Part shown: positions 5,518 to 64,000 of the stretch, piece by piece | Layout of the letters: each line of letters opens with the position of its first letter | Position numbering within the stretch: position 1 is the stretch's first letter | Assembly (NCBI GenBank): GCA_032622095.1 | Contig: CP136067.1 | Coordinates: forward strand, 128,109,990-128,173,989 | Source: Siphonodentalium dalli | Taxonomy: Eukaryota > Mollusca > Scaphopoda > Gadilida > Siphonodentaliidae | Reading direction: 5' to 3' | DNA length: 64,000 nt | Program-made: the position numbers and the translations under genes | The notes under the pieces: generated by a model | What the model was told of the DNA's origin: nothing | Databases searched by the model: none | What the model saw: only the letters and a program-made list of their open reading frames with translations

Positions 5518-5538
5518 GGTCTTCAAAATATATATGAG

Positions 5539-8244: not shown

Positions 8245-8292
<48 letters not shown>

Positions 8293-9224: not shown

Positions 9225-9305
9225 TTGTGTGTACATATCTGTATATACTTAATATATTTATCTCAATGCCTTTGTTAAGGAAATGAGAATAAATGAATTG
9301 AATTG
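9225..9305 (+). repeat. LINE/SINE-type 3' tail
   Basis: Plus-strand counterpart of 4083-4175, ending AATAAATGAATTGAATTG. No coding region precedes it. Confidence 0.5.
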
Positions 9306-18212: not shown

Positions 18213-18510
18213 CCTTCACAGACTGTTCTCCCGAAAATCCGCACATTATCTGCTTACAATGGAACTTGTTTTAGGTTGAAAATCTGCTGAGAATCACCTC
18301 ATTTTCAGTCGATAATGTACTGCAAATGAGCGTTTTAGCCACATTATCGACTCATAATGAGGCGATTCTAAGCAAATTATGTGCGCATTAATGACAGATA
18401 TAAGCCAACTCACTACTTTTCAGGTGTACATCTCTTTTACGCCATATAATGAAATAATGAACATGACTCCATTATCTGCTTATTTCAGACTCAAATAATC
18501 ACATTATGTA
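18213..18510. repeat. Dispersed fragment of the 41-45 kb palindrome family
   Basis: CTGTTCTCCCGAAAATCCGCACATTATCTGCTTA and the inverted pair ATTTTCAGTCGATAATGT / ACATTATCGACTCATAATGA match the inner part of the arms near 42480-42610 and 43560-43670. It is a solo copy with its own ~22-bp inverted repeat. Confidence 0.6.
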
Positions 18511-19227
18511 CCCGTTTCACTTTATAGGTCTATTGTGTGCATATTTGCGCGAGGATATGTCCTTTCTCACCATGTTTACAGTACACACATACACAATTAT
18601 CACATATAATCAACTACATAGCCGTTACCTGTATACACTTTCTCACAATCACCACATTAACACTCCAATATATTTTATATATGCCTAATAATATGATCTT
18701 GAGGGCGTAACTATTTCTTACTATGGTTTTCTTGTAGTGTGTGGTTCAGATATGAGTGTAACATTGCGGAGACGGTGTAAACGCAGTTATGTGGTTGCAT
18801 AAAACGTAGCACGTTTCGCATGTATGGGGCCTTAGTGAATATAAGCAAATTAATTTCCAGATATAAAGACACAGAGTATATAGGCAATTTTGGTTAAGTT
18901 GAGAATTTATTTAAGATAGTCTATGATACTCCTTTGTATTTTGATAAATTTCATTCATAATATACCACCATGCATTATTGTGATCGAAGCGAAATTTTCG
19001 TGATTCATGACTTTACCGGAGTCAACTATGACTACTATTTTAAGACAGTAGCATCTACATATGTTACCAAGTACTCTATGAACAGGTCTCATACTATTAT
19101 TTGGTTGTGAATGTTGTCAGATTTGATGTTGTAGATATAAAATTAAATGATCGGTCACATTCGTGAGGCAGCTCTGAATACATATATTTCTGCTTCAAGA
19201 AAAGGTCACAGAAACAACGAATCCCTA
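18511..19227. other. Unassigned sequence
   Basis: AT-rich, no recognised element. Confidence 0.4.
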
Positions 19228-24107: not shown

Positions 24108-24554
24108 ATATCTCACATTTACTACCTGGACTCACTGGATATGTTTTCAACTATATATCATCTACTATGTTCAACTAGTTTTTTTCTCAACTACAATTAT
24201 AATATTATATTTACATAGTAAGTGTGATCATCACTAAATCCAGCATTCCGATTGGTCGGCGCCCACGTGGCTAGTTGCAATTATTTCTCGGTGAACGCGC
24301 AACAGCTCATAACTGCAGCCTCATAATTACATCGATACATCGTCAGTTTCGGAAAAAAGAACGCGTAATCTTTTTGGTGCATTTGGCCTCGCGCAGGATT
24401 GACTTAATACATCATCGGGTTTCAATATAAAGAGAAATTGTTCCTGTTAACTTTTGCCATGGGTGCTATGGGATATTTTGGCTTGTTTTGTCACGATACA
24501 CTTTTCGATTTAAATACATTTACAAAAGTGGCTTTTTCGCTAAATGTATATACA
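24108..24554. other. Unassigned sequence
   Basis: No element or gene recognised. Confidence 0.4.
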
Positions 24555-24719
24555 TATAAGGATTAACTGTCATGTGGACTGTTTTTATGGATATGTAACC
24601 GTGAGGTAAGTGGTCATAACTTGTATGTAAAACCCTCTTCGGGTTTTACATACAAGTTATGACCACTTACCTCACGGTTACATCTCCATAAAAACAGTCC
24701 ATGACAGTTAATCCTTATA
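24555..24719. repeat. Near-perfect hairpin, ~80-bp arms, tiny loop
   Basis: TATAAGGATTAACTGTCATG ... GTCATAACTTGTATGTAAAA is followed, after a CCC-TCTTC-GGG turn, by its reverse complement. Only a few mismatches or indels are seen in ~80 bp. It is probably a fold-back MITE; transcribed, it would make a long hairpin RNA. Confidence 0.9.
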
Positions 24720-24907
24720 TAACTACTTGACTGATAACTGAAACTAACTATAGATCCTTCGATTCTCATAGGCTAGATTCATAAATTGGCATACTTATTC
24801 ATACTACATAATATATTATGTTTAACTATTTTATTTTTAATATATTTTATTGGATTTTATTTTATATTTTAAATTCTCTTTTGTAAAATAAAATACTTTA
24901 TTATATT

Positions 24908-26225: not shown

Positions 26226-27080
26226 AAGTTAGATGATGATCAAAATCGACAATAACATCCCAGATTTTGTTCAATGACTATGATGAAGTTTTTGGTGAAA
26301 TAGGTTGTTTGGACAAAATTCATCGAATTGAACTGAAACAAGATGTTATACCAGTAATTCAGGCTGCCAGGAGAATTCCACAATCTATACGAACCTCTCA
26401 AAGAAGCGATGAACAGGGTGGAAACAATTGACATCGACAAAGTGACTGAACCAAGTGACTGGGTGATCTACAGGAAACATTCGTGTTTTCCTCGACACAG
26501 AGAACTTGAATAAAGCTATCAAGCGTCATTATTACCAACTGCCGATCACTGAAGAAATCGTTGCAAAGATGTCAGGTGCGAAGATATTCAGTAAAATTGA
26601 CGCATCTTCTGGATACTGCATTTTGCAAGTTGATGAGGAATCGTCAAAATTATTATAACATTCAATTCAACATTTGGCAGATGGCGTTTCAAGCGAATTC
26701 CATTTGGAATCCTATCGGCGAGCGAATTATTCAAACGGGACATTGCATAAATAATCCAGGGACTACCTGGCACAGCAAATTCGCAAGATGATATTATATG
26801 GACAGATAATCAACAATTACATGACGCACGACTTAAAGCTGCTCTTGGCATGGTGCGATCTTCTGGACTGAAGTTAAATAAATCAAAATGTGTCTTCAGT
26901 GGAAATGAAGTTACATATCTGGGACATATTATTTCTTCAAAAGGACTGAAAGCTGATCCTAGTGAAATAACAGCAATCTTGGAAAGCCTGCTCCTGAAAA
27001 CAAAAAGGACCTCCAAAGATTATTGGGTGTGGTGAACTATCTCGGAAAATTTCTTCCGAATCTTATCATTGACATATCCT
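26226..27080 (+). pseudogene. Reverse transcriptase region of pol
   Basis: Fragments in shifting frames: HRIELKQDVIPVIQ, RDLEN-like DTENLNKAIKRH block, FSKIDASSGYCILQVDEESS, DDIIWTDN (in place of the usual YVDD box; its first part is lost), then GLKLNKSKCVFSGNEVTYLG. At least four frame changes and a small deletion before the DD box. Confidence 0.82.
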
Positions 27081-27109
27081 CTTAAACCTTGAATAAGAGG
27101 TAGAATGGA

Positions 27110-27600
27110 ACTTTCAAGCTGAACAACTTTATGATGTAAACCGTGTAAAAGTTGATGTTACAACTACACCAATTCTTCAATAGTTTGATACAACTTTACA
27201 AGTAAACGTGTTATGTGATAGTTCAAGCACAGGCCTTGGCGCTCAATTGGAACAAAAACGTGACGACAAATGGATGCCAGTTGCATATGGAAGTTCGTTA
27301 ATTAAACGCAAATAGAGAAAGAAACACTCAGCATCTTGTTCGCGTGTGAACAATTTCATGACTAGAATATGGTCCTAAATTCGTTGTTGAAAACGATCAT
27401 AAAGTATCTTCACCAAGAATTCAACGATTCTTACTGCGTCTCCAGAGATATGATTTCGGGATGAGTTATGTGAAAGGGTTTCCCCTACATGTTTCTGATG
27501 CATTAAGTAGAGCTTCACTACCAGAGTGCGATTCAGAAATTTCCAGATAATGATGTGTCGTATCATATTCATTCTGTTCTTGAAATGCTACCGATGAGTT
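27110..27600 (+). pseudogene. RNase H region of pol
   Basis: VLCDSSSTGLGAQLEQ ... PVAYGSSLIKRK is the start of the RNase H fold. Degraded matches to the usual FHHFIYG/DHKPL region follow near 27340-27420. Confidence 0.7.
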
Positions 27601-27609
27601 TTGGAAGGT

Positions 27610-28486
27610 TAGAAGAATTCCGTGATGAATCTCTCAAAGATCCAGTTGTATGTGCTTTAAAGAATGCCTTAAACTAGGGCTACCCAATGTTCTCCCTGAA
27701 GAATTGAAAGTGTTCAGCCATGTGTGGGATGAGCTGACGTGTGTTGGTGGCCTTGGGGTGAAAGGGTCGCAAATTGTTGTTCCGAAACCGATGCAGTCAG
27801 ATATGAAAAAACGTATACAGGAAGGTCATTTAGGCATTGAGCAGTGCAAAGCTCGTGCGCGAGAATGTTTATATTGTCCTGGCATGTGTGGTGAAATTTC
27901 TGAGTTGGTTTCAAAGTGTCAAACTTGTATTCTCTATCGGAACAATCATTCTTCATAACCATGTATAAATCATGAATTTGCAAACATTCCTTGGTCAAAA
28001 GTAGGGTCTGATTTGTTTATTTTCAGAAATAAGTGGTAGTTTCTTGTTGTTGACTATTCCAATTATCCGGAAATAATGCAGTTAGACAATATTTATAGTG
28101 CCAATGTAATTTCTCATACGAAAACAATGTTCGCATGTTGGGGCAAGCCTGAAATATTAATCAGTGATAATGGTACCCAGTATACCAGTGCTCTCTTCAA
28201 AACATTTGTCAATGAATGGGAATTCAAACATGTGATTTCTAGCCCATTGCATTCACCTAGCAATGGACTTGCAGAAAGGACAATACAAACTGTGAAGAAA
28301 CTCTTGAACAAAGCGCTTGATTCCAACTCTGATCCACCATTAGCGCTGCTGAACTTTCGAGCAACTCCAGGAAGTGATGGACTATCCCCTGCGAAAAAAC
28401 TATTGAATCACAACATTCGCACTAGACTGCCTACCTACCAGGAAATTCCATCAGTCGGTCGAAAGAAGAACATACAAATTTCATAA
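27610..28486 (+). pseudogene. Integrase region of pol
   Basis: The zinc-binding part HLGIEQCKARARECLYCPG ... CQTC (H-H-C-C) lies in an open stretch at 27650-27958. The catalytic core follows with PEILISDNGTQYTSALFKTF (second acidic residue) and SPSNGLAERTIQTVKKLL (catalytic E) at 28076-28486. A stop at 27957 separates the two parts. The order and motifs are those of Ty3/gypsy integrase. Confidence 0.88.
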
Positions 28487-33420: not shown

Positions 33421-33793
33421 ATGTCTTCGGGGTGACTTTATTGTTTCTATTTGTATTACTGCATCCTTGCAAGTTTGGTACTCCCTACAGCAAAACTTTT
33501 TCATCCGATTAATTCCACAAACTGTTTATAGATCTTCAGAGTAACCTCTAGCTACTTAAGCATATAAACTGTCCGAGTTCCCTGTCGCTCTATAGACTAT
33601 AATATATGACATGATCCAGTTTCCAACTTGAGCTACAGTGTCATTGACACTTTCATTTAATTTTGGTCTTTTAAATACCAAGAAAAATAATGATAAAGAT
33701 ATACTGTCCCATGTATGACCCCTAAATTAGTATTTTGTTCGGCTTCAGGTTTAAAAATAATTGATTTGAATTCGAGGAAATATGGAATACTTC

Positions 33794-33932
33794 CTAATGG
33801 CGCCGAAAGCGCCAAAACATGCGCCATTAGTAACGCGCCGACAGCGACAAAATGTGCGATATTAGCGCATGTTTCGGCGCGACGAAAGCGGGAAAATGTG
33901 CGACTAGTGGCGCATGTTTTGGCGCTTGTGTC
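33794..33932. repeat. GC-rich inverted repeat of GGCGC motifs
   Basis: AGCGCCAAAACATGCGCCA (33808-33826) is the exact reverse complement of 33908-33926. Further GCGCC/GGCGC motifs lie between them. The GC-rich patch stands out in AT-rich surroundings. Confidence 0.85.
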
Positions 33933-33949
33933 ATAAAAATTGGGGAATT

Positions 33950-34158
33950 GCCAGGGGCTTGCTTCACTCATATATGAATATACTGGTACTTATTTACTTG
34001 AAATTGGCCCCAAAACACATATTTTCATGTCATCAGCATCCATGTCCCATGAATGTGTCTCCATCCCGGATCTCTAGTATATTTGAGTAACGGGACATCT
34101 CCGGCACATATATATACATATCCACGGTCATAAAAAGGGAATTAGGGGTCCCTGGGGG
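33950..34158. repeat. First unit of ~189-bp array
   Basis: Contains GGGGCTTGCTTCACTCATAT, CCCATGAATGTGTCTCCA and GGAATTAGGGGTCCCTGGGG. The array resumes at 35216 after the hAT relic. Confidence 0.75.
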
Positions 34159-34591
34159 TAGGGCTGCACGGTATTTCGATAATACACCGTTTATTCGATA
34201 TCGTTTTGAATATTGATAGAACCCGAATTGATTTTTGGATTATTCGATATATCGAGAACGTCGGTTTCCATTTTAAGATATCGAATAAAGATTTTGAAAA
34301 AGTAAAATTGTCGTATCTATCATTGGAAATCAATGTGGCTTGTAACGAAACTCACAAAAGGAAATAAAATGTTATGGGATATAATCCTTGAAGAGCTATG
34401 GGGTTTCATTAACAGCTTGCGACAGTCAGTCGTGGCGTCGCTATTGCATATATATAATCCCGGGAATAAAACAAAGGGCACCCTTGGTCTGCATTCAAAG
34501 GCTGGTGTTAACCGACTGCCACTGGTTTGAAATTACATCCGTCGCACCTCATGTGCATATAAGCTGCACACACCGGAGTACGGCTTAAATC

Positions 34592-34780
34592 AATACAATG
34601 GCGACTTTGAGTATGATAGCACTATGTGGGAGTCACGCAACAAACATTCAACACAATACAATGGCGACTTTGAGTATGATAGCGCTATGTGGGAGTCACG
34701 CAACAAACATTCAACACAATACAATGGTGACTTTGGGTATGATAGCACTATGTGGGAGTCACACAACAAACATTCAGCTG
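34592..34780 (+). repeat. 63-bp in-frame tandem repeat, 3 copies
   Basis: AATACAATGGCGACTTTGAG begins copies at 34592, 34655 and 34718. 63 bp equals 21 codons, so the repeat (containing NKHSTQYNGDFEYDS) keeps the reading frame. Confidence 0.85.
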
Positions 34781-35150
34781 TGCAACAAGTGTCTGACTCA
34801 ACATCTGATAGGAACAGTGTCGATACTGATGTCCCAATTCCGAAGAGAAAAAAAACCCTAGGTAGTCTCCACTTCTAGTGATTCTAAGGTTAAACGCACT
34901 GAATGCATTCAGGGTGAGATAGACGAGTATACATCGACTCCGACGATTGCCAAAGACTCAAATGCATTGATGCGGTGGAAAATGAACTATAAAAACTTTC
35001 CTATTCTCAAAGAAATATTTGTGCGTGAGCGCCACAAGTGTACCATCGAAAAGACTATTCAGCAAGTCAGGGCACATTGCCGCGGCTAAACGATCGTGCC
35101 TCAGGCTAGCCAATATTAACATACTGACATTCCTTGCATGTAACATGTAA
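34624..35150 (+). pseudogene. hAT transposase fragment (N-terminal linker plus dimerisation domain)
   Basis: The frame runs through the 21-residue repeats into SDSTSDRNSVDTDVPIPKRK. It shifts by one base before STSSDSKVKRTECIQG, then enters the hAT C-terminal domain: EIDEYTSTPTIAKDS ... RWKMNYKNFPILKEIF, a second frameshift, then LFSKSGHIAAAKRSCLRLAN and ILTFLACNM-stop at 35150. These are the standard conserved blocks of the hAT C-terminal dimerisation domain. The BED zinc finger and catalytic core were not found. Confidence 0.75.
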
Positions 35151-35215
35151 AAGTGAAATGTATTCTTGTTGGTATGATGTTATATAATTATGTAGTTGAT
35201 ATCCTTGTTAATTAA

Positions 35216-36040
35216 GTAGGCTTGCTACCCTCATATGGTGTACTTATTGACTTCAAATTTGGTTTTAAAAAGCACAGTTTCATGTTATTAGCATCCCTGA
35301 CCCACGAATGCGTGTCTCCACCCCGGAGTTCTAGTAAATTTTAGTAAAGGGACATCTCCTGCACAGATATATAGCTTTCCGATGGTCATCAAAATGGAAT
35401 TGAGTTATTGGTGGACTACTTCCCGCATATGGTGGCCCTATATAAACTCGAAAATTGAAATTTTTCCGAATGCCTATATAGACTCGAATAAAAACATTTC
35501 CAAATGCATATCAGCATCCCTGCCCCATGAATGTGTTTCCATCTCGGAGTTCTAGTAAATTTCAGTAAAGGTACATCTCCTGCACATTTATACAATTTGC
35601 ATGGTCATAGATATGGAATTAGGAGTCCCTGGGGGCTTGCTTCCCTCATATGGTGTACTTATTGACTTAAAATTGGGAAAACCCCATATTTTCATATCAT
35701 CAGCATCCCTGCCCCATGAGTGTGTCTCCACCCTGTAGCTCTAGTGTATTTGATTAAAGTGGCATCTCCTGCACAGATGCAAACAATATCCATGGTCATA
35801 AAAATGGGTCCCTGGGGGCTTACTTCCCTCATATGGTGTACTAATTTACTTAAAATTGGGTAAACAAATTACCCATAGTTCCATACAATCAACATCCTTG
35901 CCCCACGAATGATTGTCTCACCCCGGATCTCTGGTATATTTAAGCAAATACATCTCCTGCACAGATCTGTACCATAAAATGCTATTTAGGGGTTACTGGG
36001 TGCTTGCTTCCCTCGACCCTCATATGGTTGGCCTATATCG
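35216..36040. repeat. ~189-bp tandem array, ~4 copies
   Basis: GCATCCCTG/CCCCATGAATG anchors lie at 35291, 35514, 35703 and 35892 (223, 189, 189 bp). Each copy has a CATCTCCTGCACAGAT block and a GGCTTGCTTCCCTCATATGG block. A related, more diverged copy is at 36965-37135. Confidence 0.8.
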
Positions 36041-36964
36041 ACTCGAATATTGAATAAAACCCCTCTTTCCTTATAGCGCCCACTCTCCCGCGGCGAAGCC
36101 ACGGAAGCGAAGCTACCTAGGGTATAAGTATGCGGATATGAGATATACTAATCGAATTTTTCAGCCCAATCTAAAAATAGATTGAACTTACCTAAAATAA
36201 AATTATTTATTCATAATTCAAGGGTCCAAAAATTATTGTTGGCGACGGCCGCCATTTTGTATTGATTAATACCACCTCGAAATGTGTAATTGGACAAAAT
36301 GCTCCAGGGCAAAAATAAAAAACTTTGTTCCGGTAATTGTTAGCTATACTTCATCATACGTAGGAACATCATGCTCCTAAAGCTAACGATATTTAAAAGA
36401 TTGAATGTAAATTAAACCAAAGCCCTGGTTAACAAAAACTGAAATTACAAAACTGAAAGTTTTGTTTACATATTTTATAAAATTAATTAAAATATTTGCA
36501 CCGAAAGAGGATTCTAGAGGCCTTACTGGTCGTTTAGAATTGATCTTCCATTTTCTAACGGTATTTCCGCCTAAAAGATTGAAGAAATATTCTCAAAGTT
36601 CAAGGCCGACAAACAGAAACTATAAGTTCCGATTGAAAGATCACAGAATCATTTTAAGATTGCTTCTTGTGAAACCAGTAAAGGCGTCATGACATCAAGA
36701 CGTACGTCATGACGTCACAACCTACATCGGCGCTCAAAATTAGACATGACTGCGTAGATGGCCAGACAGCTGAGACCCGTATTACACGGGCAGGTTCAAC
36801 ATCCACATTTACGTTATATGTCATTATTTACATACATTGTATATATTTTTTCTTGTGTCCCATTAGGGTTTATCATCACATCCTTCTAAAGATAAAAATT
36901 CATCCGATAATCCCATGAACAGTAACAAGCGGGTGCAAATTACGTTTACGTATGACCATATTAT
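36041..36964. other. Unassigned sequence
   Basis: No element recognised. GGCGACGGCCGCCATTTTG at 36240 repeats the motif type of 31.5-33.4 kb. The 76-codon frame at 36462-36692 is basic but lacks any motif. Confidence 0.4.
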
Positions 36965-37135
36965 ATATGCATATTATCAACATCCTGGTCACAAGAATTG
37001 ATGTATCAATCCGGGAGCGCTACTATTTTTGGCATTGAAGTGACATAAATAACGTTCACATACCTATACCATTGCTAATGTCATAAAAAGGGAATTAGGG
37101 GTCGCTCGGGGCTTTCTTCCCGCATAAGGTGTATG
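36965..37135. repeat. Diverged copy of the ~189-bp unit
   Basis: ATCAACATCCTGGTCACAAG ... GTCATAAAAAGGGAATTAGG ... GGGGCTTTCTTCCCGCATAA follows the order of the 35216-36040 unit. Confidence 0.6.
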
Positions 37136-37269
37136 AGCATATATAAATAGATAAATATGTTAATATTGGACTTACTTGACTCTGAACTAAGCCGTCAGTG
37201 GACGTAAACACGTTATTCCGTCGCAAGGCTCCGTCCACAATGAAAACCCAGTATAAAGACCGTCATAAT

Positions 37270-37350
37270 TATGGTAGGCCGTGAGTTGGTTTATTCGTGT
37301 TATTTTCCAGTCTGTTTTCTTAAAAATAAGCACAATACGTGCTGATTCCA
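37270..37350. repeat. Dispersed fragment of the 41-45 kb palindrome family
   Basis: GCCGTGAGTTGGTTTATTCG and TGTTATTTTCCAGTCTG to AATAAGCACAATACG match 41860-41930 in the same orientation. Confidence 0.65.
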
Positions 37351-38030
37351 AATGCCAAAATACTAATACCGAAGATATGGGTCTGGCGTGAGAACAGCCA
37401 ACTCACCTATCAGAATAACAATAGCACTTTATTCAGTCTATCGATTGAAACATAATCTAGCGCATCACGCAGTCACCAATGGAATGCAGTAATATTCTAT
37501 GTTTTATATGTTAGCCCTGATACAACTTTAAAATAGAGAGGTTGAGGTATAGGATACACGAATGTTCCAGACTAACTTTTGAATATTCATATATAATTAA
37601 GATAGAGTAATAATAGTGGTCCTTAGTTAAGTAATACATGAGTAAATTACATGTAAAGATACGTTCAACCTTCCAGACCAATTCTTTAAAAAAAATCAGT
37701 TTTTCTACTATTGTCTCGTATGTAGTTTCATGACTCCAAAGAAATATGGATCAGGTGATAGTAATAACATATACTTAATGTTGAACCGGACCCAGGGCGG
37801 TCGCTAATAACCTCAACCATGGATGTTTCGTACCGGATTTCATTTAGTTTTGTTTTGTTTTTGTTATATATTCAGTATGTTTGTATGTCAGTATGCATGA
37901 TCTGTATCATGATTCTTATTCCAGTGGCGTAATATACTATTGTGCTTATTTTCCAAATATATATACATGATCTTCTACTAGTATGTTTTTCTATGTCGAC
38001 GTTTGGGTAGTCTGCATGCTAGTTGTCGAT
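37351..38030. other. Unassigned sequence, possibly 5' part of the LINE that follows
   Basis: No motif. The stretch from about 37780 may be the 5' UTR of the LINE relic at 38032, but no boundary is visible. Confidence 0.3.
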
Positions 38031-38031
38031 T

Positions 38032-40740
38032 ATGTCTATAAAAATACTGTCTTCAAATTGCCGAGGTCTTAATCAGTCAGAGAAACGCCGCGACGCATTC
38101 CGATATTTACGATAACAAAGTGCCTCAATATACTGTCTACAAGACACGCATTTCACAAAAGAAATGGAAAGATACATATCTACATAATGGGGATTCAAAA
38201 CAATATTGGCACCCTTCTCATCGCAATCGCGTGGTGTGGCAATTCTATTTAACCAGAACCTCGACTTTCAAATACACAATTCTATCAAAGATGAAAGACT
38301 TTAGTTAATATATATGCCAAAATGAAGATAACCCTGATTTTTACATACAGCTGAAAACTAAGATTATGGACATGGGTAACACCCAAATAATAATATGTGG
38401 TGATTGGAATATGGTACAAAATCAGTCCGCTGATACTTTAAATTATAAACATGTTAACAATCCCCGGGCTAAATATGCGGTGGGCGACCTTTTCGACAGA
38501 CTCGAACTGGTGGATGCTTGGAAAATTAACAACAAAGACAGAAAACGATATACATGGAGAAACAAATCTCCAATAAAAATGGCTAGACTAGATTACTTTA
38601 TGATATATGAAGATCTTCTAAGTCTAGTTGGGGCAGGGACAGATATATTACCGGGATACCGCTCTGATCACTCCATAATATCACTCACATTAAAATTAAA
38701 TACAATTGTGAGAGGTCGAGGTTATTGGAAATTTAACACCTTACTTCGTGAAAATGAATATGCAGTATTGGTGCATTCTATAATAGAAAGAAATAAACTA
38801 AGATACGAATATAACTGAATATATGTGAAGAAAATACAAGTCATGTTACCTGTAAAATTAGTAAACGTTTATTTTTAGACACCCTTTTATTGGATATAAG
38901 AGGTGAAACTATAAATGTCCCAGCAAAACGAAAAAGAGAACGCAAAAAGAAAGAGGACGAATTAAACAAATCTTAAGTAATATTGGAAACAAAAGTTGAA
39001 AACAACGCCCAAGGTTTAACAGAAAGAGATGAATTATTGGAAAAATTAAATAAAATAGACTCTGAGCTCTAAGAAATTAGAAAAGAAGATACGAGGGGGG
39101 GGGGCAATGATAAGATCTAGAGCCAGGTGATTGAAAACGGTGAAAAACCCACAAAATATTTCTTGAATCTCGAAAATGACATTTCTAAAACTCCATCGAT
39201 TCTCACGGACTCCACTGGTAAAAACATTGATAATCAGTCCGACATAATGAACGAAGTAAGAACATTTTACAGTACTTTATATGCATCTACAAAAACAACC
39301 GACTATTAGCTGGACATTATGCTTTATCATTTTCTATGGAATTCAAAGCGCGATCGAGTGAAACGCAGAGTTGTATGCCAAGATTACAAAAACGGTGGCT
39401 TGAAAATGGTTGATGCCAATAATGTTATGCTGTCAATGAAAATAACTTGGGTGAGACGCCTCATAACAAAGAGCGCCAAATGAATGCCCCTCACAGATAG
39501 TCCATTATGTAAGGACCCCATGGTCCTTAAATATGAACATGGCTATATTTAGAGAAACAGGCAAATAAATTAACTAGTCCATTCTGGCATGACGTTTTGT
39601 TATCATATGTAAAATTATGTACGCTGTGGAATAATCCAATATTAAACAATATGGAAAGGTAATATACTTCACTTCTTGGCGCGAAAAGGGGATTATGTAT
39701 ATAAACGATATGCTAGACAGTAAAGGTTCTTTTCTTTCACAATGAGCCATACATATGACATTTAATATACGGACAGACTTCATCACTCTAAACACTATAC
39801 AGCATCAGATAAAATTAAGTGCAAAAAAGCTTGGCCGCCAACAGATAACTCGAGTTTCCTACCCCATTCTACCCACTAACTTCAGCACTTTGCTTAACAA
39901 TTCGCGGGGAGGACAAGATTTTTACAAAGCTTTGAACGATACTCAAATTACGAATAAAGCGCGCACAAAATGGCAATCACAGATTCCTGATATGGGAAGT
40001 GCAGTATTTACATATGATAAACTACCCTTTCTCACGACGCCTGACACCAAGTTACAATGGTTACAATTCCGAATGAATTCTAGAATATTATCAACTTATA
40101 ACTTTCTACACATATCTAATATAAGACAAGATGATAAATGTGATAGGTGTAAAAGTGAAAAGGAAGATATCAACCACAGTTTTGTGGGATTGTAGTCATG
40201 CATATGTGCAGACATTTATTAGATATATCTGTAATTGGGGGGGAAATATTGATATAAATCTCTATCCCACAAATATGACAATGATTATTGGCCCATCACC
40301 CATTAGTAACAACTATACTACAAACTTGCTATAGCTCCTAATTAAACAATATATATATCGGTCTAAATTTAAACAATCGTTTTGTCTGTTAATGTGTTCC
40401 TCAAAGAGTTGGCATATAGATACAATTGCGAGAAATATACAGCACGATGTCAATCGAAATTTCCAGAATTCTTGAAAAAACTGGTTCCTTATAGAAATAG
40501 TTTGAAATGCTCCTAATTAAACAATATATATATCGGTCTAAATTTAAACATTCGTTTTGTCTGTTAATGTGTTCCTCAAAGAGTTGGCATATAGATACAA
40601 TTGCGAGAAATATACAGCACGATGTCAATCGAAATTTCCAGAATTCTTGAAAAAACTGGTTCCTTATAGAAATAGTTTGAAACAAACAGGCGACTTAATC
40701 AGAAATCGACAAAGTTACCTGAATTGTTTAGATCGCTAAG
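38032..40740 (+). pseudogene. L1/Tx1-like LINE relic lacking the reverse transcriptase core
   Basis: An ATG at 38032 starts the AP-endonuclease domain (KILSSNCRGLNQSEKRRDAF). A stop and frame changes follow, then the rest of the endonuclease at 38366-38818: IIICGDWNMVQNQSA, TWRNKSPIKMARLDYF, and YRSDHSIIS with the catalytic SDH. Next is the linker GEKPTKYFLNLENDISKTPS (39127-39309). The sequence then jumps at about 39310 to the post-RT part (LYHFLWNSKRDRVKRRVVCQ, DYKNGGLKMVD) and the C-terminal domain at 39755-40195 (LQWLQFRMNSRILSTYNFLH, then CDRCKSEKEDINHSF). The whole finger-palm RT region is gone, a deletion of roughly 1.5 kb judged against L1 layout. The element is dead. Confidence 0.85.
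40334..40683. repeat. 175-bp tandem duplication in LINE C-terminal/3' region
   Basis: The block starting GCTCCTAATTAAACAATATA at 40334 is repeated from 40509. Only about one base differs, so the duplication is recent compared with the decay of the LINE. Confidence 0.92.
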
Positions 40741-41096
40741 GATTATCACCCAGTCAGTTAAAACAAATACTTTCTACCACGATCTCCATAATAACATCTA
40801 TGTTGAGAATTGAGTTTATCCGTAACATCCGACGTATTTATAATACATTATTATATACTATACACATGCATATATTGATTTATTATATAATTTTATAACA
40901 CTGGTGAGCGAATGTCGTGAGCAAGAGAGTAAGAACGATATATGTGTGAACGCGAGGAATGTCATACCTGTATATAAATATAAATTCCATCGACAATTTT
41001 GTATATGACATTCCTCACTGTGATTGATTCTTCTATAAACATTTTTTTTTAAAGAATTGTGGTTATTTTCTCGAGAACAGGCTTGATTTTAGAGCC

Positions 41097-42600
41097 TATC
41101 CTGTTCTTGTGAAAAGAAGTATACATAACGTGATTATTTTGAATGATGCGTTTTAGCCCCATATATAGAGTATTTGAGAAAAAGACGCTCGTATGGTTGT
41201 AAAACGCAGTGTTCAATATACAATGTAAGCACGATATGGGCTTATTTCAATACGAAATAAGGCCATATTGGTACTATTTATTCTACTTTTTCATCAATAC
41301 GACTTACCAGATGCGCGCTAGCTCTTTATGTGTGTGCTCCAGAGAAATAATTCCAATATGAACCTATTTGAATATATAGGTCCAATTTGAACCTATTGGC
41401 ACGATGATATGTTAGTTTTTTATAGATGGACTGGTGGCACAATACGAATTCCCAATCATTATGTAGACTCGTACCTGTTGTGATTATATATGTCCACAGA
41501 GGCGATTTAGCAACAAAACTTACATATTATTCAGCCATACACGACCTTTGAACATGCAGCTGCGTTGGTGTACATGACATTCTTTGTGATGATTAAACGG
41601 ACTATAACTGCAGGCACAGTAATAATCGACAGGGATAGCACCGTGGTTGTATTGGGTATGCATACAGAGGCGATTTAGTAACATACAGAGGCGATTTGGT
41701 AACGAAAAATTATTTTTCACCTCGCACGACTTACAAATGCATGGGTTCATATTGGACAGAATTAATCTCATAGGTTTATTTTGAATTTATTTGATTCTCA
41801 AATTATGCCGTTGAATGGCACGGGCCACAGTGAATACGCCATAAAACGAATGTACACATAGTAAGTCGTGAGTTGGTATATTAGTGTTATTTTCCAACGT
41901 GTTCTCGTGAAAATAAGCACATTACAAACTTATTTCATATTGAAATAGTCCCATATACGGCTGTTTTAATATTCGGAGTAATTATGCCCATATAGAGTGT
42001 ATTTCAGTTTGCAAATAATGCAAATATGAGCTTATTTCGCGCAATTATAAAAATAAGCCCTTTTTGTGGTAATTTTCGCAAGAACAGTCTGCTCTCGTGA
42101 AAAGAAGCACACTACGGGCTTATTTTTAATGTTGCCCATATAGAGCGTATATAATTGTGAAAATATGCTCTTTATCCTGCCTATATGCGGGCATTAAACG
42201 CGGCGTTCAAAATAAGCATGGTATGCTTTAAAATTATGGTATGCTTATTTCAATACGAAGTAAGCCCATATTGACACTATTTAATCGACTTTTTCATCGA
42301 TACGACTTTTGCACGCTCCTCATATAATGTATTCTCAGTGCGACCCGCGACCCGCCCCATTCAACGGGTATAAACTTAATATAGGAGTATTTCATAAAAA
42401 TAAGTCCAATATCAACCTATCTGAATCGATAGGCCCAATTTGAACCTATTGGCACGAAAATTGTATTTTTAGACGTAACAACTGCAGCCTGTTCTCTCGG
42501 AAACCGCACAGTATCTGCTTATAATATAATTAGTTACATAATCTGCTTAGAATCGCTTCATTTTGAGTCGATAATAACTGAAAATGAGAGAGTTTTAGTC
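41097..42600 (-). repeat. Left arm of giant inverted repeat
   Basis: Contains, in order, the complements of the right-arm landmarks: CATAACGTGATT, the AATAAGCCCATAT palindromes, GCGCGCTAGCTCTTTAT, the zone with CAGAGGCGATTTAGCAAC, TTATTTTCCAACGTGTTCTC, and CATTTTGAGTCGATAATAAC. Confidence 0.8.
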
Positions 42601-43560
42601 ATATTATCGACTCATAACGATTCGGTAAATCGAGTTGATGAAAACAAGTAGATTAAATAGTGTCAATATGGGCTTATTTTCGTATTGAAATAAGCAAATA
42701 CCGTTCTTATTTTGAACGTCGCGTTTACGCACATAGTATATATTTGTTCTCAAATAGGCCCTATATGGTCCTAAAATACATCAAAATAAGCCCGTATTGT
42801 GCTTTTTCCACGAGAACAGGATGGAAAATTTCGAGAAAATAAGCATAATAAGGGCTTATTTTTAATTGGGCGAAACACGCTGATATTGGCATTATTTGAA
42901 TCTCAAATACACACTATATGGGCCTAATTACTCTGGTTATTAAAACAGCCATATATGGCAATATTTAGATATTAAATAAGCCAGCAGTGCTCTTATGATC
43001 ACGGCAACACGCTGGAAAATAACACGAATAAGCCAACTCACGACTTATCAGATCTATGTTCCTTATTTTGCGTTTTAACTGTGGCCTTGTCATCCAACGG
43101 AATAGGTACAATATAAACATATGGGAATATTTAAGACCAATGTGATCCTAAGTGGATATTTAGGTACAATATGAACCTATTTGCATGTGGATATGTTGAA
43201 AATTATGAACAATGTCATGTACAACTTTACAGCTGTTTAGAACATTGGGCGTATGTCGCAAGTTTTCGTTGCTAAATCGCACTTTTTGGCAAAACCACAG
43301 CAGCCGCGAGGCTTTCATTGTGGATTATTCTTGTGCCGCCACTAGTTCATCTAAAATTAACAAACTATAGTCATATATGTCCATCATCTGTTGGCATAAC
43401 CACAGCAAGGTGCTATCCTTGTGGATTCTTCTTGTGCAGTCACTAGTCCATCCATTAATTAAAAAACTCTGCAACACATCCTCGTCCAAATACGCACATA
43501 ATCAACCTATAATGTGCAAATAGATTCATATTGGGTTAATTTATTCTGAAATAAGCAGAT
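42601..43560 (+). repeat. Central extra copy in right-arm orientation
   Basis: CACGCTGGAAAATAACACGA at 43009 and AACCACAGCAAGGTGCTATC near 43390 repeat right-arm blocks at 44229 and 44614 in direct orientation, about 1.2 kb apart. Confidence 0.7.
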
Positions 43561-43569
43561 AATGGACTA

Positions 43570-45315
43570 AGACGCTCTCATATTCAGTTTATTATTGACT
43601 CAAAATGAGACGATTCTAAGCAGATTATCTGAGACCAATTATATTATAAGCTGATAATGTGCGGATTCCATCTAAAAATCCAATCCTAGTGCCAATATGT
43701 TAAAATTTGGCCTAACTATTCACATAGGTTGATATTGGACTTATTTTTATGAAATAAGCCTATATTAAGCTTATATCCGTTGAATGGGGCGGGTCGCACT
43801 GGAAATACATTATATGAAGAACGTGAAAAAGTCATATCGATGAAACATTAGATTAAATAGTACCAACATGGGCTTACTTCGTATTGAAATAAGCATACCA
43901 TGGTTATTTTGAACGCCGCGTTTTATGCCCGTATATAGACAGGATATAGAGCATATTTTTTCACAAATAGGTACGCACTATAATGGCCTCAACGCAACAC
44001 TAAAAATAAGCACGCATTGTGCTTCTTTTTGTGAGAACAGGCTATTCTTGCAAAAATAAGCACAATACGGGCTTATTTTATAATTGCGCGAAATAAGCTC
44101 ATATTTGCATTATTTGAAAACTGAAATATGCTCTATATGGGCATTATTACTGTGATTATTAAAACAGCCGTATATGGCCGTATATGGGACTATTTCAATA
44201 TGGAATAAGTCCGTAGTGTGCTTATATTCACGAGGACACGCTGGAAAATAACACGAATAAGCCAACTGACGACTTACTAGGTGTACGTTCGTTTTATTGC
44301 GTGCCATCCAATGGTATAATTCGGTCCAATGTGAACCAATTTGTACGAAAATATGTTGAAAAATACACAGTACTATCTGTGCCGGCCCAGCTGTTTAAAA
44401 TATCGGTCGTAAGTCGTTCGTTGTATCAAAATACTGGGGGGAAATGCAATTGTCCTTGCAAAACCGCACCCTTACCCGGAACCATAGCAGCCACGAAGCT
44501 CTCCCTATCGATTTGTGTTGTGCCGCCACTAGTTCATCGAAAAATCCCATATATGCCCATACAGTTGTTCAAACATTTATCATAAGTCAGTTGCTGAATC
44601 GCCTATTTATTCATATAACCACAGCAACGACGGGGTTATCCTTGTGGATTCTTGTTATGCCACTGTTCAATCTACAAACTGGTCATTTATGCCCTTTCAG
44701 GTGTTCACAAATTGAGCGTAACTCGTGCGTGGCAAAAAATAATTTTTCGTTACTAAATTGCCTCTATATGCATACGAATACAACCACCGTGCTATCCCTG
44801 TAGATTATTATTGTGCCTGAAATTATAGTCCCTCTAAACATCACAAAGAATGTCATGTACACCCATGCAGCTGCGTGTTCAAATGTCATGTGTGGCTGAA
44901 TAATATGTATTTTTTGTTGCTAAATCGCCTCTGTGGACATATATAACCACAACAGGCACGGGTCTACATAATGATTGTAGATACATATTGTGTCACCACT
45001 CCATCTAAAAATCCTAACATGTCATCGTGACAATAGGTTCAAATTGGACCTATATATTCACATAGGTTCATAGTGGACTTATTTCTCTGAAACACACACA
45101 TTATAAAGAGCTAGCGCGCATCTGGTAAGCCGTACTGATGAAAAACTAGAATAAATAGTGTCAATATGGGCTTATTTCATATTGAAATAAGCCCATATCG
45201 TGATTATATTGAACGATGCGTTTTAGACCCATATGCGGGTCTTTTTTCTCAAATACTCTCTTTATGGGCCTAAAACGGAACATTCAAAAGAATCACGTTA
45301 TGTACTTTTCACAAG
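43570..45315 (+). repeat. Right arm of giant inverted repeat
   Basis: Complement of the left arm. It also holds two related internal blocks with GCTAAATCGCCTCT-like and CATAACCACAGCA-like sequences, so the arm itself grew by duplication. Confidence 0.8.
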
Positions 45316-45788
45316 ATAAAGTTGTGTCAAGTCAAGTCGACAAACACCGTCACCATCCAGCTTTCCCCATTGACCGAATTCACGTTAAGCTGTATGTTAT
45401 CTTCTGCATTGTTCATAACTGTATGTTCCTTGTCGATTTAAGAAAATAGAAGTATATATGTGGATTAACAGATTCATGTATTTACTGTTTAGTAATATGA
45501 TAATATGCAAAGCACATAGAACAACCCGGCATGTTGTTAAAAGGAAGGCCTTTCGGGGGATCGTCATGAACATATATGCATATTTTGGCCTAACGCATGA
45601 TAACGACTCGAATGTTCGAATATTTTTTGTTGATCATTTCGGACGGGAGTAGGTCTAGACTTCGATAATTTTGCCTACAAAAATTAATATAGCTTATGGT
45701 TTACACATTTCAATGGTGAGATTTACGCCATCTGAGTCAAGAAATTTACACGATCCTTTGCAATGTCATTCTTCTGTACCATTATGCA
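45316..45788. other. Unassigned sequence with a short element-end copy
   Basis: TAATATGATAATATGCAAAGCACATAGAACAACCCGG at 45491-45527 matches the outer end of the fold-back element at 45789-46173. Nothing else was recognised. Confidence 0.5.
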
Positions 45789-46173
45789 GGGGTCGTTCTA
45801 TATGCCTTGCATATTATCATATTAACTTTTAAAGAGAAGCCCTTCAGTTGAAAATATGATTATTCAACAAAAAGAGCTTACTGATGAAATGTTGCGAAAA
45901 CCCTGTGCATTATCTTAAATCTGCCATAGGGAGAATCGAATATATAAGAGAATACATTGGCCTAACAATATTTGCAATGGCCCTGTAAGCCAGTGCATTC
46001 ACTTAAATCTGCGAGGCTCCCTATGGGAGATTTAAGATAATGCACAGGGTTTTAGCAACATTTCAGGTCTCCAGTCATGGAAGAAATTTTTTTGAATAAT
46101 CGTAATTTCAACTGAAGGGCTTATCTTTTAAAATTTAATATGATAATATGCAAGACATATAGAACGATCCCGG
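45789..46173. mobile_element. Fold-back element, ~385 bp
   Basis: The ends GGTCGTTCTATATGCCTTGC ... and the complement of ATATGCAAGACATATAGAACGATCC pair over about 150-180 bp with indels. The inner part has CCCTGTGCATTATCTTAAATCTGCCATAGGGAG and its complement, plus a variant of the palindromic module (AATATATAAGAGAATACATTGGCCTAACAAT). Non-coding. Confidence 0.75.
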
Positions 46174-46179
46174 CACAAT

Positions 46180-46831: not shown

Positions 46832-46886
46832 ACGAGCAAACGTTGAGCCGATTTGTTAACCCTTTGCCCAAACAGAAGGGCCCTGT

Positions 46887-46955
46887 GCCAATCTATTCTC
46901 TTATATATGCGAGTCGACCATAGGTCGCCTCGCATATATACGAGAATGCATTGGC
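46887..46955. repeat. 68-bp palindromic module, copy 3
   Basis: GCCAATCTATTCTCTTATAT ... ATATATACGAGAATGCATTGGC with centre GAGTCGACCATAGGTCGCCTC. Confidence 0.85.
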
Positions 46956-47025
46956 TTAACACATTAAAAATTATAAAATTGTTAAAGAATGTAAGAAAAA
47001 ATGGTAAAAAGTTTTTTTTTTTTAG

Positions 47026-47094
47026 GCCAATGCATTCTCTTATATATGCGAGGCGACCTATGGTCGACTCGCATATATAAGAGAATGCATTGGC
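47026..47094. repeat. 68-bp palindromic module, copy 4
   Basis: The arms are perfect to the eye; the centre is GAGGCGACCTATGGTCGACTC, i.e. opposite orientation to copy 3. Confidence 0.88.
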
Positions 47095-47599
47095 AAAGGG
47101 CATAACTGTAACTATCACAATGTGGTCAATGAGCCGGTTCCAATGATATCCATATTTGTATGGTTCTATTTATTGAGACAGACCGAAGATATTTTAGGCT
47201 GTTGAAGCTTTATTTGGCCGGTTTTGGCCGGTTTGTTGAGTAAAGGGTTAAAAAAAACACGGGTAGTCACACGGGTAATTGGCAACTTGTCAATATTCTT
47301 GGGCTGGTGATATGCGATTCGGGGCTGGTATAATACGATTCCATATGATAACAAAGAAAACCAATGCTATTTTCTGATTAACATCTACGCGTGTTGATAA
47401 CCCGCGAGACCCAGGAGAAATCTACTGACATAGCGCAAACGATAAGTTGCAATATTAATTACATCCTTTGGGTGAAATAAAACGGACAATTTATGGGGAC
47501 AACTACATATGACTTAGTGTCATAATTAGTTTTGTATGGCGCCAGCTGTCTAGTTTTGAGCGTGACAGTGTGCTGGCGACTCGGTGGTTACGGTGTTCT

Positions 47600-53952: not shown

Positions 53953-54112
53953 CTTGTATAGCATTAAAGTCGTCGTCGCGAAGTTCATATTTTACCCATT
54001 TCCCCGCTTATTAGACCAACAGAGTCGTTCTGAGAACGAAATTAATCGTCCCAAGATTAGCCGCTATCGATTCGCATTCCAGGAAACCCCCCTGGCATGC
54101 GCACAGCAGTTG

Positions 54113-55065
54113 TATGGGAGGCTCGTTACATCCACATCTAAAAATAGATTTTTTTGGGTCTAAAATTGTTTGTACTAAAATCTTCCCAAAAAAAGTTTTC
54201 AAAACCCAATTTTTTTTTTTAAATTTAAAAACAAAAAAAGTTTTACAAAATCTCAAAAAATTTATAACGAGTTTTCGGTCTCTTACCCAAATATCGGCCG
54301 ACTATTAAATGTCGAATGTTTTTTTAAATATTTGCGTGTAATATCTTTCGTTATTTTTGTTCAAACAAATTTTAAATATTTTTCATGAAACTCTGTTAAT
54401 TTTATTAATCGATGTTTAGAAATAGCTTTATACCAATTATATGTGTATGGACAGGTCCGAGTCGCTGTAATTTTGGACATTGTGACCATCGGTATGAATG
54501 CATACATTCCAGTGTTTATCAATCAGACGCAGTCCATGCATCATATAATTGTCATACCTGAAATAATTTGACACCATTACTCTTACATGAATAATAAAGA
54601 GCGTTTATTCTTTACTTCTCTATCCCGATGAAGTTATTGAGTATATGACAGGTGTGCATTATCGCGAATTATTGGAAGTATTGAGATGTTGTACTATTTT
54701 GAAAGCAGTCACGATATTTGAGCGTGTCCAAAAAATTTCAAAAACTTCCAAAACTTCCAAAACTTTCAAAACTTTCAAAAATTTCAAAAATTTCAAAAAC
54801 TTCAAAAACTTCAAAAATTTCAAAAATTTCAAAAACTTCAAAAAAACTTCAAACATTTCAAAAATTTCAAAAACTTCAAAAACTTCAAAAATTTCAAAAA
54901 TTTCAAAAATTTCAAAAAACTTAAAAAATTTCAATATATAATGAAGATGACGAGCAACCAATTTTCGACTGGCCTGAGACATTACGTTATGGAATGAATA
55001 ACGACAGCGGATCAGAATGTGATCATACACGCAATAATAGAAGTTACTTTGATGTTGTTATGAAT
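54113..55065 (+). repeat. Left arm of fold-back element
   Basis: Includes the minisatellite at 54730-54940. A target duplication outside the arm could not be recognised. Confidence 0.85.
54730..54940. repeat. 9-bp minisatellite (left arm)
   Basis: About 23 copies of TTCAAAAAC or TTCAAAAAT. Because 9 is a multiple of 3 it leaves frames open on both strands (for example repeated FKN), which is not evidence of a protein. Confidence 0.92.
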
Positions 55066-55411: not shown

Positions 55412-56384
55412 ATTCATAACAACATCAAAGTAACTTCTATTATTGCGTGTATGATCACATTCTGATCCGCTGTCGTTATTCATTCCATAACGTAATGTCT
55501 CAGGCCAGTCGAAAATTGGTTGCTCGTCATCTTCATTATATATTGAAATTTTTGAAGTTTTTGGAAATTTTGGAAGTTTTTGAAATTTTTGAAATTTTTG
55601 AAGTTTTTGAAGTTTTTGAAATTTTTGAAGTTTTTGAAATTTTTGAAATTTTTGAAATTTGTTTGAAGTTTTTGAAATTTTTGAAATTTTTGAAGTTTTT
55701 GAAATTTTTTTAATTTTTTTAATTTTTGAAAGTTTTGGAAGTTTTGGAAGTTTTTGAAATTTTTTGGACACGCTCAAATATCGTGACTGCTTTCAAAATA
55801 GTACAACATCTCAATACTTCCAATAATTCGCGATAATGCACACCTGTCATATACTCAATAACTTCATCGGGATAGAGAAGTAAAGAATAAACGCTCTTTA
55901 TTAGTCATGTAAGAGTAATGGTGTCAAATTATTTCAGGTATGACAATTATATGATGCATGGACTGCGTCTGATTGATAAACACTGGAATGTATGCATTCA
56001 TACCGATGGTCACAATGTCCAAAATTACAGCGACTCGGACCTGTCCATGCACATATAATTGGTATAAAGCTATTTCTAAACATCGATTAATAAAATTAAC
56101 AGAGTTTCATGAAAAATATTTAAAATTTGTTTGAACAAAAATAACGAAAGATATTACACGCAAATATTAAAAAAAACATTCGACATTTAATAGTCGGCCG
56201 ATATTTGGGTAAGAGACCGAAAACTCGTTATAAATTTTTTGAGATTTTGTAAAACTTTTTTTGTTTTAAAATTTTGAAAAAAAAAATTGGGTTTTGAAAA
56301 CTTTTTTTGGGAAGATTTTAGTACAAACAATTTTAGACCCAAAAAAATCTATTTTTAGATGTGGATGTAACGAGCCTCCCATAC
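55412..56384 (-). repeat. Right arm of fold-back element
   Basis: Reverse complement of the left arm. The minisatellite here differs in copy number and order from the left one, while the unique parts are nearly identical. Confidence 0.85.
55545..55765. repeat. 9-bp minisatellite (right arm)
   Basis: GTTTTTGAA/ATTTTTGAA copies, complement of the left minisatellite, with irregular units (TTTGTTTGAAG, TTTTTTTAATT). Confidence 0.9.
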
Positions 56385-56770
56385 TACTCACAGCAGTAAA
56401 CGCGAACTGCAGATTGGGTGTGACGTCATTAATCACCTTGCGGCATTCTGTTAACATTGTGTTATCGAAATCGGTTTCTGCGTGGTTTTGTTTTAGTTCA
56501 CAAACAAGGTTTCGTTTTCGTTGGAAATCGTGAATTCGGAATGTATTTATGTGTGTAATAAAATATTGAATAATACGACATGAATTATTCGCGTGGCCAA
56601 AAAACTCCGGAGTAAATTCGTACATATTTGGACGAAGTTCGTGTGTCACTGTGACTGTCAGAATAGGACCACAGCAGATCATGCCATGAATCTCTACTCC
56701 CGTGCCGCTGGAGTAGGTATTCGTGGCATGATCTACATGTAGGTCCACGGGAACTTCGAAATTTATTAAC
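56385..56770 (-). CDS. Open coding-like segment of unknown protein next to fold-back arm
   Basis: On the minus strand a frame with no stop runs from about 56770 into the fold-back arm: NFEVPVDLHVDHATNTYSSG, IHGMICCGPILTVTVTHELR, then a charged stretch (RIHDFQRKRNLVCELKQ) to NLQFAFTAVSS. Its first ATG-like start is actually GTG. The composition is more protein-like than other frames here, and the frame lies outside the repeat arm for about 125 codons. It may be a host exon or a captured or transposon-borne fragment. No domain recognised; no clear splice sites. Confidence 0.3.
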
Positions 56771-61461: not shown

Positions 61462-61517
61462 TATATGTGACCCGCCATATCAAATCCAGTCGTAAGTCGG
61501 GATTTGTTTTACCCTGT

Positions 61518-61588
61518 GCCAATGCATTCTCTTATATATATGCGAGTCGACCATAGGTCGCCTCGCATATATAAGAGAATGTATTGGC
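61518..61588. repeat. 68-bp palindromic module, copy 5
   Basis: GCCAATGCATTCTCTTATATATATGCGAG arm (one extra TA) with centre TCGACCATAGGTCG. Confidence 0.85.
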
Positions 61589-61811
61589 CTAACAATTGTT
61601 TACAATTTTAATAATTGTTTCTTGTATTCTTTAACAATTTTATAATTTCACCCATACAGAGCCACCAGACAAACATGAGCAGACGACACTCTTCTATAAT
61701 TATGCTTCTATATATGTGTGGGGCTCCCTGCAGGGTAATGGATGTTTTTTATTTTATGTCCTAAAAATTCTAAGAAACATTTATTTAAAAAAAATGATAA
61801 TGTTTTTTTAG

Positions 61812-61880
61812 GCCAATGCATTCTCTTATATATGCGAGGCGACCTATGGTCGACTCGCATATATAAGAGAATGCATTGGC
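61812..61880. repeat. 68-bp palindromic module, copy 6
   Basis: Reads the same as copy 4 (47026-47094) as far as the eye can tell. Confidence 0.88.
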
Positions 61881-61935
61881 ACAGGGTAAAAAAATCCCGA
61901 CTTACGACTGGATTTGATATGGCGGGTCACATATA

Positions 61936-62756: not shown

Positions 62757-64000
62757 CAAATAAACGGTGCGGTGTGGTGGATCACCCCGTTATGTTAGAA
62801 AAACCGAAAACCGAACCAGTATATAGCCCGTGCGGTTGCAACAGAGGTGGTAAAAAGGGCACCCATTGTCGTTTCCGTATCTATGGATCGATTTTAACAA
62901 AATAAACCACAGGGGCCTGTAACGCGCTCCGCTGCCCCCCCCCCCCTTGTGCTGTCCATATACGCCGCTTCTGTATACGAGCCTGCTTCACGTTAATGGT
63001 ATATAATATAGACAAGGTTAACTGTAGAAATTCACATTTTTACCATCGCTCGGCGATCGATCAAATTTAGCCCATTCACACCAGTAATGCTAACGATATA
63101 GGCACGGATTTATCGGCAAAAATTAATCTTTCAATCAATACCACAAACTCCCATCAGAACATTTCATATACATAGCATTTGATATTTTTTTAACCACCGA
63201 ATATTGTCTCCGAAGACCGTAAATTTTCGGATTGATCCGGCTCAAAATACAATGGACGATATCTTCCTCTAACTTCACCCCCGCACGGCTTACTATAATT
63301 AAAATCGGTCAAACGATCAACTGAACATCTAGCGCTCATGGAGTTCTTGTCGGCTAATAATTTATTTACTCATACAAATCAACAGATCGTCAGTAATAAA
63401 TTTCTATAGAGGAGAAATCTGTCGATAATTCCAACTTTTTTTTCATTTTTTCTTTACGAATCACGCAGCGCCTCATTTTAATATTCATTATGACCTGACC
63501 TTTCCATGACTGCTATAGTAGAAACAGCCAATCACCGCTCAGTATTAGAATCGAGGTCAGGTCATAATGAATATTAAAATCCGAAAATTTACGGTCTTCG
63601 GAGACAATATTCGGTGGTACAAAATGTATCAAATGCTATGTATATGAAAGGTTCTGATGGGAGTTTGTGGTATTGATTGAAAGATGAATTCTTCGCTGAT
63701 AAATCCGTGCCTATATCGTTAGCATTACTGGTGTGAATGGGCTAAATTTGATCGATCGCCGAGCGATGGTAAAAAGGTGAATTTCTAAAGTTACCCTTGT
63801 CTATAGTATATACCATTAACGTGAAGCAGGCGCGTATACAGAGGCGGCGTATATGGGCAGCGCAAAAAGGGGAGGGCGGACAGCGGAGCGCGTTACAGGC
63901 CCCTGTGAAATAAACGGTGCAACAGGGTGGCCCACGCCATGTTATACTACAAAAACTGAAAACCGCGCGGTTGCAACAGGAGGTGGCAAACAGGGCACCC
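62757..64000. mobile_element. Large inverted repeat with directly repeated flanks, reaching window edge
   Basis: The left arm (about 62905-63230) and right arm (about 63570-63905) are reverse complements: GGGGCCTGTAACGCGCTCCG with CGGAGCGCGTTACAGGCCCC; GCTCGGCGATCGATCAAATT with AATTTGATCGATCGCCGAGC; ACCACCGAATATTGTCTCCG with its complement. Outside the arms, 62757-62873 and 63907-64000 are direct repeats (ATAAACGGTGC ... GCGGTTGCAACAG ... CAGGGCACCC type). Within the centre, 63475-63501 and 63554-63580 form a 27-bp inverted pair. No protein is encoded. Confidence 0.8.
63475..63580. repeat. Inner hairpin, 27-bp arms
   Basis: ATTTTAATATTCATTATGACCTGACCT and its exact complement enclose ~52 bp. 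Confidence 0.9.

Follow-up and report, generated by a model that had tools for sequence, protein, structure and literature searches.

Structure of the Palindrome

A stretch of 64,000 nucleotides from the scaphopod mollusc Siphonodentalium dalli (GCA_032622095.1, contig CP136067.1, positions 128,109,990 to 128,173,989; hereafter the window) holds a nested palindrome of 4.2 kb, which makes up no more than the core of a longer element. This element is probably a non-autonomous fold-back DNA transposon, comparable to Galileo and Tetris, that carries ends of the IS3EU type and was moved in trans, and the copy in the window is old, lies in pieces and is without its right end. The structure of the element and its past mobility are well supported; we infer the identity of the transposase, and the route by which the ancestor became a palindrome.

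When the region from 40.5 to 46 kb was compared with the window by BLASTN, two pairs of inverted arms were recovered, an outer pair at 41105–41682 and 44749–45316 (86.8% identity over 582 columns, 737 bits) and an inner pair at 41836–42608 and 43558–44302 (80.0% over 796 columns, 692 bits), so that arm complementarity is 80–87% overall, while the best inverted match among 50 Markov-1 random sequences of matching composition reached 44.6 bits. The spacer contains one middle copy of the repeated unit (42637–43104), inverted relative to 41804–42298 (74%) and direct relative to 43839–44302 (74%), and self-alignment also found small hairpins within the core, for example at 45164–45198. A preliminary description of the window, made from its letters, had proposed a nested palindrome with a third, central copy in right-arm orientation, built from small palindromic cells, and each of these features was recovered. 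The core thus comprises a left outer arm at 41054–41835 on the plus strand (arm A, 41105–41682; self-alignment, family alignments and arm tree), a left inner arm B at 41836–42608 on the plus strand (self-alignment and arm tree), the middle copy on the plus strand (centre class; self-alignment and unit tree), a right inner arm B' at 43558–44302 on the minus strand (self-alignment and arm tree) and a right outer arm A' at 44749–45316 on the minus strand (self-alignment), with family sequence ending at 45316–45336.

The limits of 41097 and 45315 proposed in the same description cover the core only, as the element begins at 33781. This follows from a copy on contig C1 (C1:226415619–226431041; contiguous loci L045, L009 and L046), which has both termini, is flanked on both sides by the duplication AAAACA and is 15.4 kb long including insertions. 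Its main arms, at element positions 4465–6827 and 7936–10264, match over 2435 columns at 84.4% (2.4 kb), and further outer arms are present. Both strands of this copy were compared with the window. The minus strand is colinear with window positions 33835–45316, centre included, through the blocks 33835–34158, 35510–35966, 35806–36075, 36962–37353, 41054–41682, 41741–43568 (1901 columns, 84.5%) and 43558–45316; the plus strand is colinear in the arms and not in the centre, as is expected of a palindrome. Because of this ordered colinearity, the window is read as holding one element from its terminus at 33781 to 45316, broken by later insertions, and not an element of 4.2 kb. The C1 copy has itself received insertions, one of which, flanked by CTAATTC on both sides, is judged from its reading frames to be a putative long interspersed nuclear element (LINE).

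Dispersal, Termini and Target Site Duplications

In the genome of 2,226,750,531 bases (nine contigs), the core matches at least 324 stretches, as counted from 40 scored among 9893 candidate places, bearing out the earlier suggestion that the family is dispersed. Twenty of the matched places were taken as 10-kb loci for family alignments, and these share sharp family edges that lie beyond the window core and lead to subterminal repeats and a terminus. The element termini read TATGGAATAC..GTATTCCATA, the family terminus also being written TATGGAATACTATTAGGGCC. The end motif GAAGTGGCCCTAATAGTATTCCAT occurs 1166 times in forward and 1165 times in reverse orientation across the genome at up to two mismatches, against none in either orientation for the reversed control.

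Positions were available for 100 exact ends. Those listed included 15 pairs whose ends face each other at a distance below 20 kb, 14 of them short and one of 10.4 kb. All 15 were taken for the target duplication test, giving a set of 16 pairs made up of 14 short miniature inverted-repeat transposable elements (MITEs), one interrupted MITE and the palindrome-bearing copy on C1. The 14 short MITEs that were read carry the same terminus as the palindromic element. The 6-bp flanks are identical in 10 of the 16 pairs and differ by at most one mismatch in all 16, and every pair starts with T and finishes with A, whereas duplications of 3–5 and 7–11 bp were exact in only zero or one of the 16 and none of 240 mis-paired ends used as a control agreed. 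Three pairs of places have flanks in common (L038/L039, L032/L033 and L036/L042), so the number of independent pairs is 13. The proposal that this is a fold-back element moved in trans is supported by its dispersal, by terminal inverted repeats (TIRs) with 6-bp duplications, and by the family sequence examined, in which no transposase was recognised.

Relationship to Known Transposons

The preliminary description regarded the family as unrecognised, but IS3EU is indicated by its termini and by the length of its duplications, the superfamily label being drawn from these two traits alone. In the excerpts of the literature used here, TA..TA termini are a constant of complete IS3EU families and 6-bp duplications are usual in them (PMC10045372), and fungal IS3EU families are given TAYGG..CCRTA termini, 6-bp duplications and TIRs longer than 30 bp (PMC12730594). 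The present family resembles them in its 6-bp duplications (10 of 16 exact, all 16 within one mismatch, and AAAACA in the C1 copy), in the five terminal bases TATGG..CCATA, which fit the pattern stated for the fungal families in the excerpted account (PMC12730594), and in a TIR of more than 30 bp, the interrupted MITE having a 70-column terminal match at 88.6%. The outermost 25 bp at the two ends of the C1 copy differ by one mismatch, and its long arms begin about 55 bp from the ends. It differs in that no transposase was found here and in that the element is mostly one palindrome, something the excerpted accounts of IS3EU do not describe. Oyster satellites have also been labelled IS3EU in the part of that report used (PMC8268682).

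The architecture is that of fold-back elements, as the TIRs make up most of the element (in the C1 copy, the main arms together with the outer arms) and are internally repetitive, as in Galileo and Tetris. Galileo, a member of the P superfamily in Drosophila, has TIRs that vary in length through tandem repeats and recruited inner sequence, according to the excerpt used (PMC3573991), and its likeness to the present family lies in these variable, internally repeated TIRs and in the first known Galileo copies having consisted of long TIRs only (PMC3573991). Galileo, however, makes 7-bp duplications, which were exact in none of the 16 pairs, and has a P-type transposase, whereas the duplications here are of 6 bp, the termini are different and no transposase was found. 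In Tetris, from Drosophila virilis, the TIR has three components according to the consulted part of its account: a flanking domain on the outside, a tandem array of repeats of about 220 bp, and an inner domain (PMC4079207). Tetris is likewise an apparently non-autonomous fold-back element, the MITE DAIBAM has its terminal part, and the source of its transposase was not found according to the same excerpt (PMC4079207). It differs in its 8–10-bp duplications and assignment to Mutator (PMC4079207), duplications of 8–10 bp being exact in none of the 16 pairs, and in that its excerpt describes no array whose 1.3-kb units are inverted around a centre (PMC4079207). Mutator-like elements with multiple tandem TIRs also have duplicated, nested terminal repeats and are mobile and mostly non-autonomous, but they belong to a plant Mutator superfamily and are smaller, as far as the excerpt goes (PMC3310237). 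Polinton, hAT6, Galileo and Mutator all ranked below IS3EU when termini and duplication length were weighed.

A literature search in which subscription journals and Repbase entries were outside the scope found no fold-back IS3EU element, the one paper it returned mentioning Foldback solely in the title of a reference. Fold-back elements are known from P-type (Galileo) and Mutator-type (Tetris) transposons in the excerpted accounts, and the same architecture on IS3EU-type ends would imply that it has evolved repeatedly. Galileo has produced chromosome inversions, as stated in the abstracts and excerpts used.

Coding Capacity

The largest open reading frame (ORF) in 41 family segments (82.9 kb from 20 loci) is at most 138 amino acids, no Pfam match was found in the 10 that were scanned of the 21 family ORFs of at least 100 amino acids, and no transposase was recognised in this sequence. 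The earlier statement that no transposase is present accordingly holds for the family segments examined. Elsewhere in the genome there are 126 matches to the integrase core PF24764, which we take to be a marker of IS3EU transposases. One of these, at C7:169176405, is some 5.7 kb away from the L015 element's right terminus.

History of the Arms and Units

The arm trees give an identity between the left and right arms of the window of 89.5% for arm A and 88.0% for arm B, against 86.7–92.2% and 85.8–91.7%, respectively, in comparisons with arms elsewhere. The two window arms are thus unpaired in the trees, in which inner branches do not exceed 0.015 apart from the duplicated loci L009 and L020, whose arms B do not group. 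The repeated units show a second pattern, as 51 unit copies fall into three position classes, outer (13 copies, support 1.0), mid (22 copies) and centre (16 copies, support 1.0), the window middle copy belonging to the centre class with 15 others. Unit copies therefore cluster by position rather than by locus. From these sequence comparisons, the palindrome appears to be older than the dispersal of the family, and they indicate that the middle copy was part of the ancestral plan. On the simplest reading, divergence of the units would have come first, the two palindrome halves would still have been almost identical when the family spread, and the arms would since have decayed mostly alone. The star-like arm trees suggest that near-perfect palindromes of several kilobases existed at dispersal and could integrate many times, and such integration bears on the tolerance of cells for long palindromes.

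Weighing of the Explanations

Several observations weigh against a non-autonomous fold-back transposon with ends of the IS3EU type. The C1 copy is the only palindrome copy shown with both termini and a duplication, it is the only one of the 16 tested pairs that bears the palindrome, and it is composite, because its left terminal domain is present twice. Few loci allowed a comparison of both arms of one copy, namely the window, the duplicated L009/L020 and, for arm B only, L014; the two arms A of L009/L020 do group (branch 0.005, support 0.83), and the mid class of units has a support of just 0.63. No transposase was linked to the family ends in the part compared, which covered 43 of the 126 PF24764 matches (those on C1, C2 and C3 up to 196 Mb) and the 100 listed exact ends among the 2331 ends; the smallest distance between one of these matches and one of these ends was 132 kb. 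A candidate autonomous partner, the 10.4-kb end pair at C3 76435176–76445577, was rejected since its ends are the halves of a MITE split by an unrelated element.

It is unlikely, though by some way the least so of the alternatives, that this is a fold-back element of another superfamily with 6-bp duplications, such as hAT6 or a Polinton-like element, whose likeness to IS3EU termini arose by chance. Duplications of 6 bp are also reported for hAT6 (PMC12730594) and for Polinton (PMC10045372) in the excerpts used, and the lack of a transposase linked to the ends compared would suit this explanation as well, but the five terminal bases of the family fit the IS3EU pattern, of which TA..TA is constant in complete families as excerpted. 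That the palindrome has been retained as a source of hairpin RNA, a small-RNA locus directed against its own family, is very improbable; long inverted repeats would fold if transcribed, but the arms have decayed in a star-like manner and the window copy has no sign of upkeep.

Still less probable is an immobile palindrome that arose in place through repeated rounds of hairpin-mediated inverted duplication, which the preliminary description had offered as the alternative to a fold-back element. The hierarchy of hairpins and inverted copies inside one locus would suit such an origin, as would the weak pairing of the L009/L020 arms A. The plan including the middle copy is, however, common to other loci and apparently predates dispersal, and the termini have target duplications. 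The two window arms resemble one another no more than they resemble arms of other copies, and the units group by position and not by locus, which together speak against a local origin of the window palindrome. A hairpin-mediated duplication event may instead have made the ancestor. Large palindromes are a known type of assembly error, but the fusion of a read with its reverse complement can practically be dismissed here, with arms that differ by 13–20% and a structure that recurs on several contigs.

Under the reading as a fold-back transposon of IS3EU type, the complete element would be a giant imperfect palindrome, reading inwards from the TATGGAATAC terminus through subterminal short palindromic repeats and a tandem array of about 190-bp repeats to units placed at intervals of about 1.3 kb, which run outer, mid, centre and then mid, outer, with the halves inverted about a single-copy centre. 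It would make no protein of its own, and an IS3EU-class transposase would read the terminus shared with the short MITEs and move the element in trans by cut-and-paste. The ancestor may have been an array of diverged units that was extended by inverted duplication before the burst, for instance through hairpin formation or templated repair after excision. A bolder proposal, plausible though falling a little short of being favoured, is that fold-back elements arose independently within IS3EU, an IS3-type transposase having mobilised near-perfect palindromes of kilobase scale as complete cargo across the 2.2-Gb genome; the 1.3-kb units and small palindromes would then have served as additional sites for transposase or host factors.

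The Copy in the Window

Compared with the termini of other copies, the left terminus of the window copy (TATGGAATACTTCC..., with 12 nt of the usual end motif absent) and its subterminal palindromic repeats occupy 33781–33903 on the plus strand. The outer part of the left arm, or terminal domain, follows at 33904–34158 (plus strand, family depth 21) and matches the complete C1 copy at element positions 2162–2521 and 57–433 on the plus strand and 14845–15165 on the minus strand. A later insertion of non-family sequence at 34159–35218, seen as a gap in family coverage with colinear sequence on either side, separates it from the tandem array of about 190-bp repeats (35219–36075, plus strand; repeat and family alignments). 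Beyond a further insertion in the left arm at 36076–36957, again a gap in family coverage, the start of the outer 1.3-kb unit lies at 36958–37359 on the plus strand, as aligned with the family and with the C1 copy. The stretch from about 37360 to 41053 is taken up by one or more later, LINE-like insertions, recognised from ORFs and the C1 alignment, the ORFs matching Exo_endo_phos and zf-RVT below the Pfam cut-offs. A 174-bp tandem duplication (40334–40682, 99.4%) lies inside or beside this insertion.

The right outer part of the window copy was not found anywhere in the 64-kb window by family alignment. The left break on the LINE side (41054–41105) and the loss on the right (45316) are at near mirror-image positions of the palindrome, and these may mark a fragile site or have arisen by chance. 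The earlier description also named two solitary related fragments; the first, at 18219–18560 on the plus strand by self- and family alignment, is indeed separate, but the second, at 37270–37350, is a piece of the window element.

Other Elements and Features

Other sequences were observed at the loci sampled. The C3 end pair encloses a different element, bounded by TAGTCTAGTGG..CCACTAGACTA and holding what is left of a cysteine-rich ORF that is related to large ORFs elsewhere; locus L053 turned out to be a deletion-bearing relative of this element, and the ends at L049 and L050 were uninformative. At L049 (128–1390) two adjacent ORFs resemble a tyrosine recombinase, as judged by eye. A 1353-bp tandem repeat in the C3 pair (L043 and L044, 1178–7046; about 4.3 copies, about 99% or more identical) is absent from the close relative L051 and has no similarity to the palindrome core. 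The stretches L052 (254–4498, minus strand) and L044 (2566–4134) represent a large single-ORF family with many similar matches and open frames of up to 1467–1585 amino acids. Its members carry a C-terminal cysteine cluster and a stretch that weakly resembles a 5'-3' exonuclease (E 0.011, below the cut-off), and a degenerate relative lies inside the TAGTCTAGTGG-ended element that split the MITE. This family may be Academ-like.

Within the window, a second inverted repeat at 54108–55065 and 55412–56388 (96.1% over 977 columns, spacer of about 350 bp) holds 9-bp minisatellites in its arms, and is probably younger than the core palindrome because its arms are more alike. Further short palindromes, perhaps MITEs, lie at 45781–46179, 46880–47101, 61462–61935, 24554–24720, and 62908–63233 with 63578–63907, one of them directly to the right of the core. 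No Rfam match at gathering scores and, with ARAGORN, no tRNA were found in the window. Retroelement fragments at 26751–28483 include an integrase zinc-binding domain and an integrase core above the Pfam cut-offs and a reverse transcriptase below them, and a 326-amino-acid ORF at 3120–4097 on the minus strand carries a glycosyltransferase family 11 domain.
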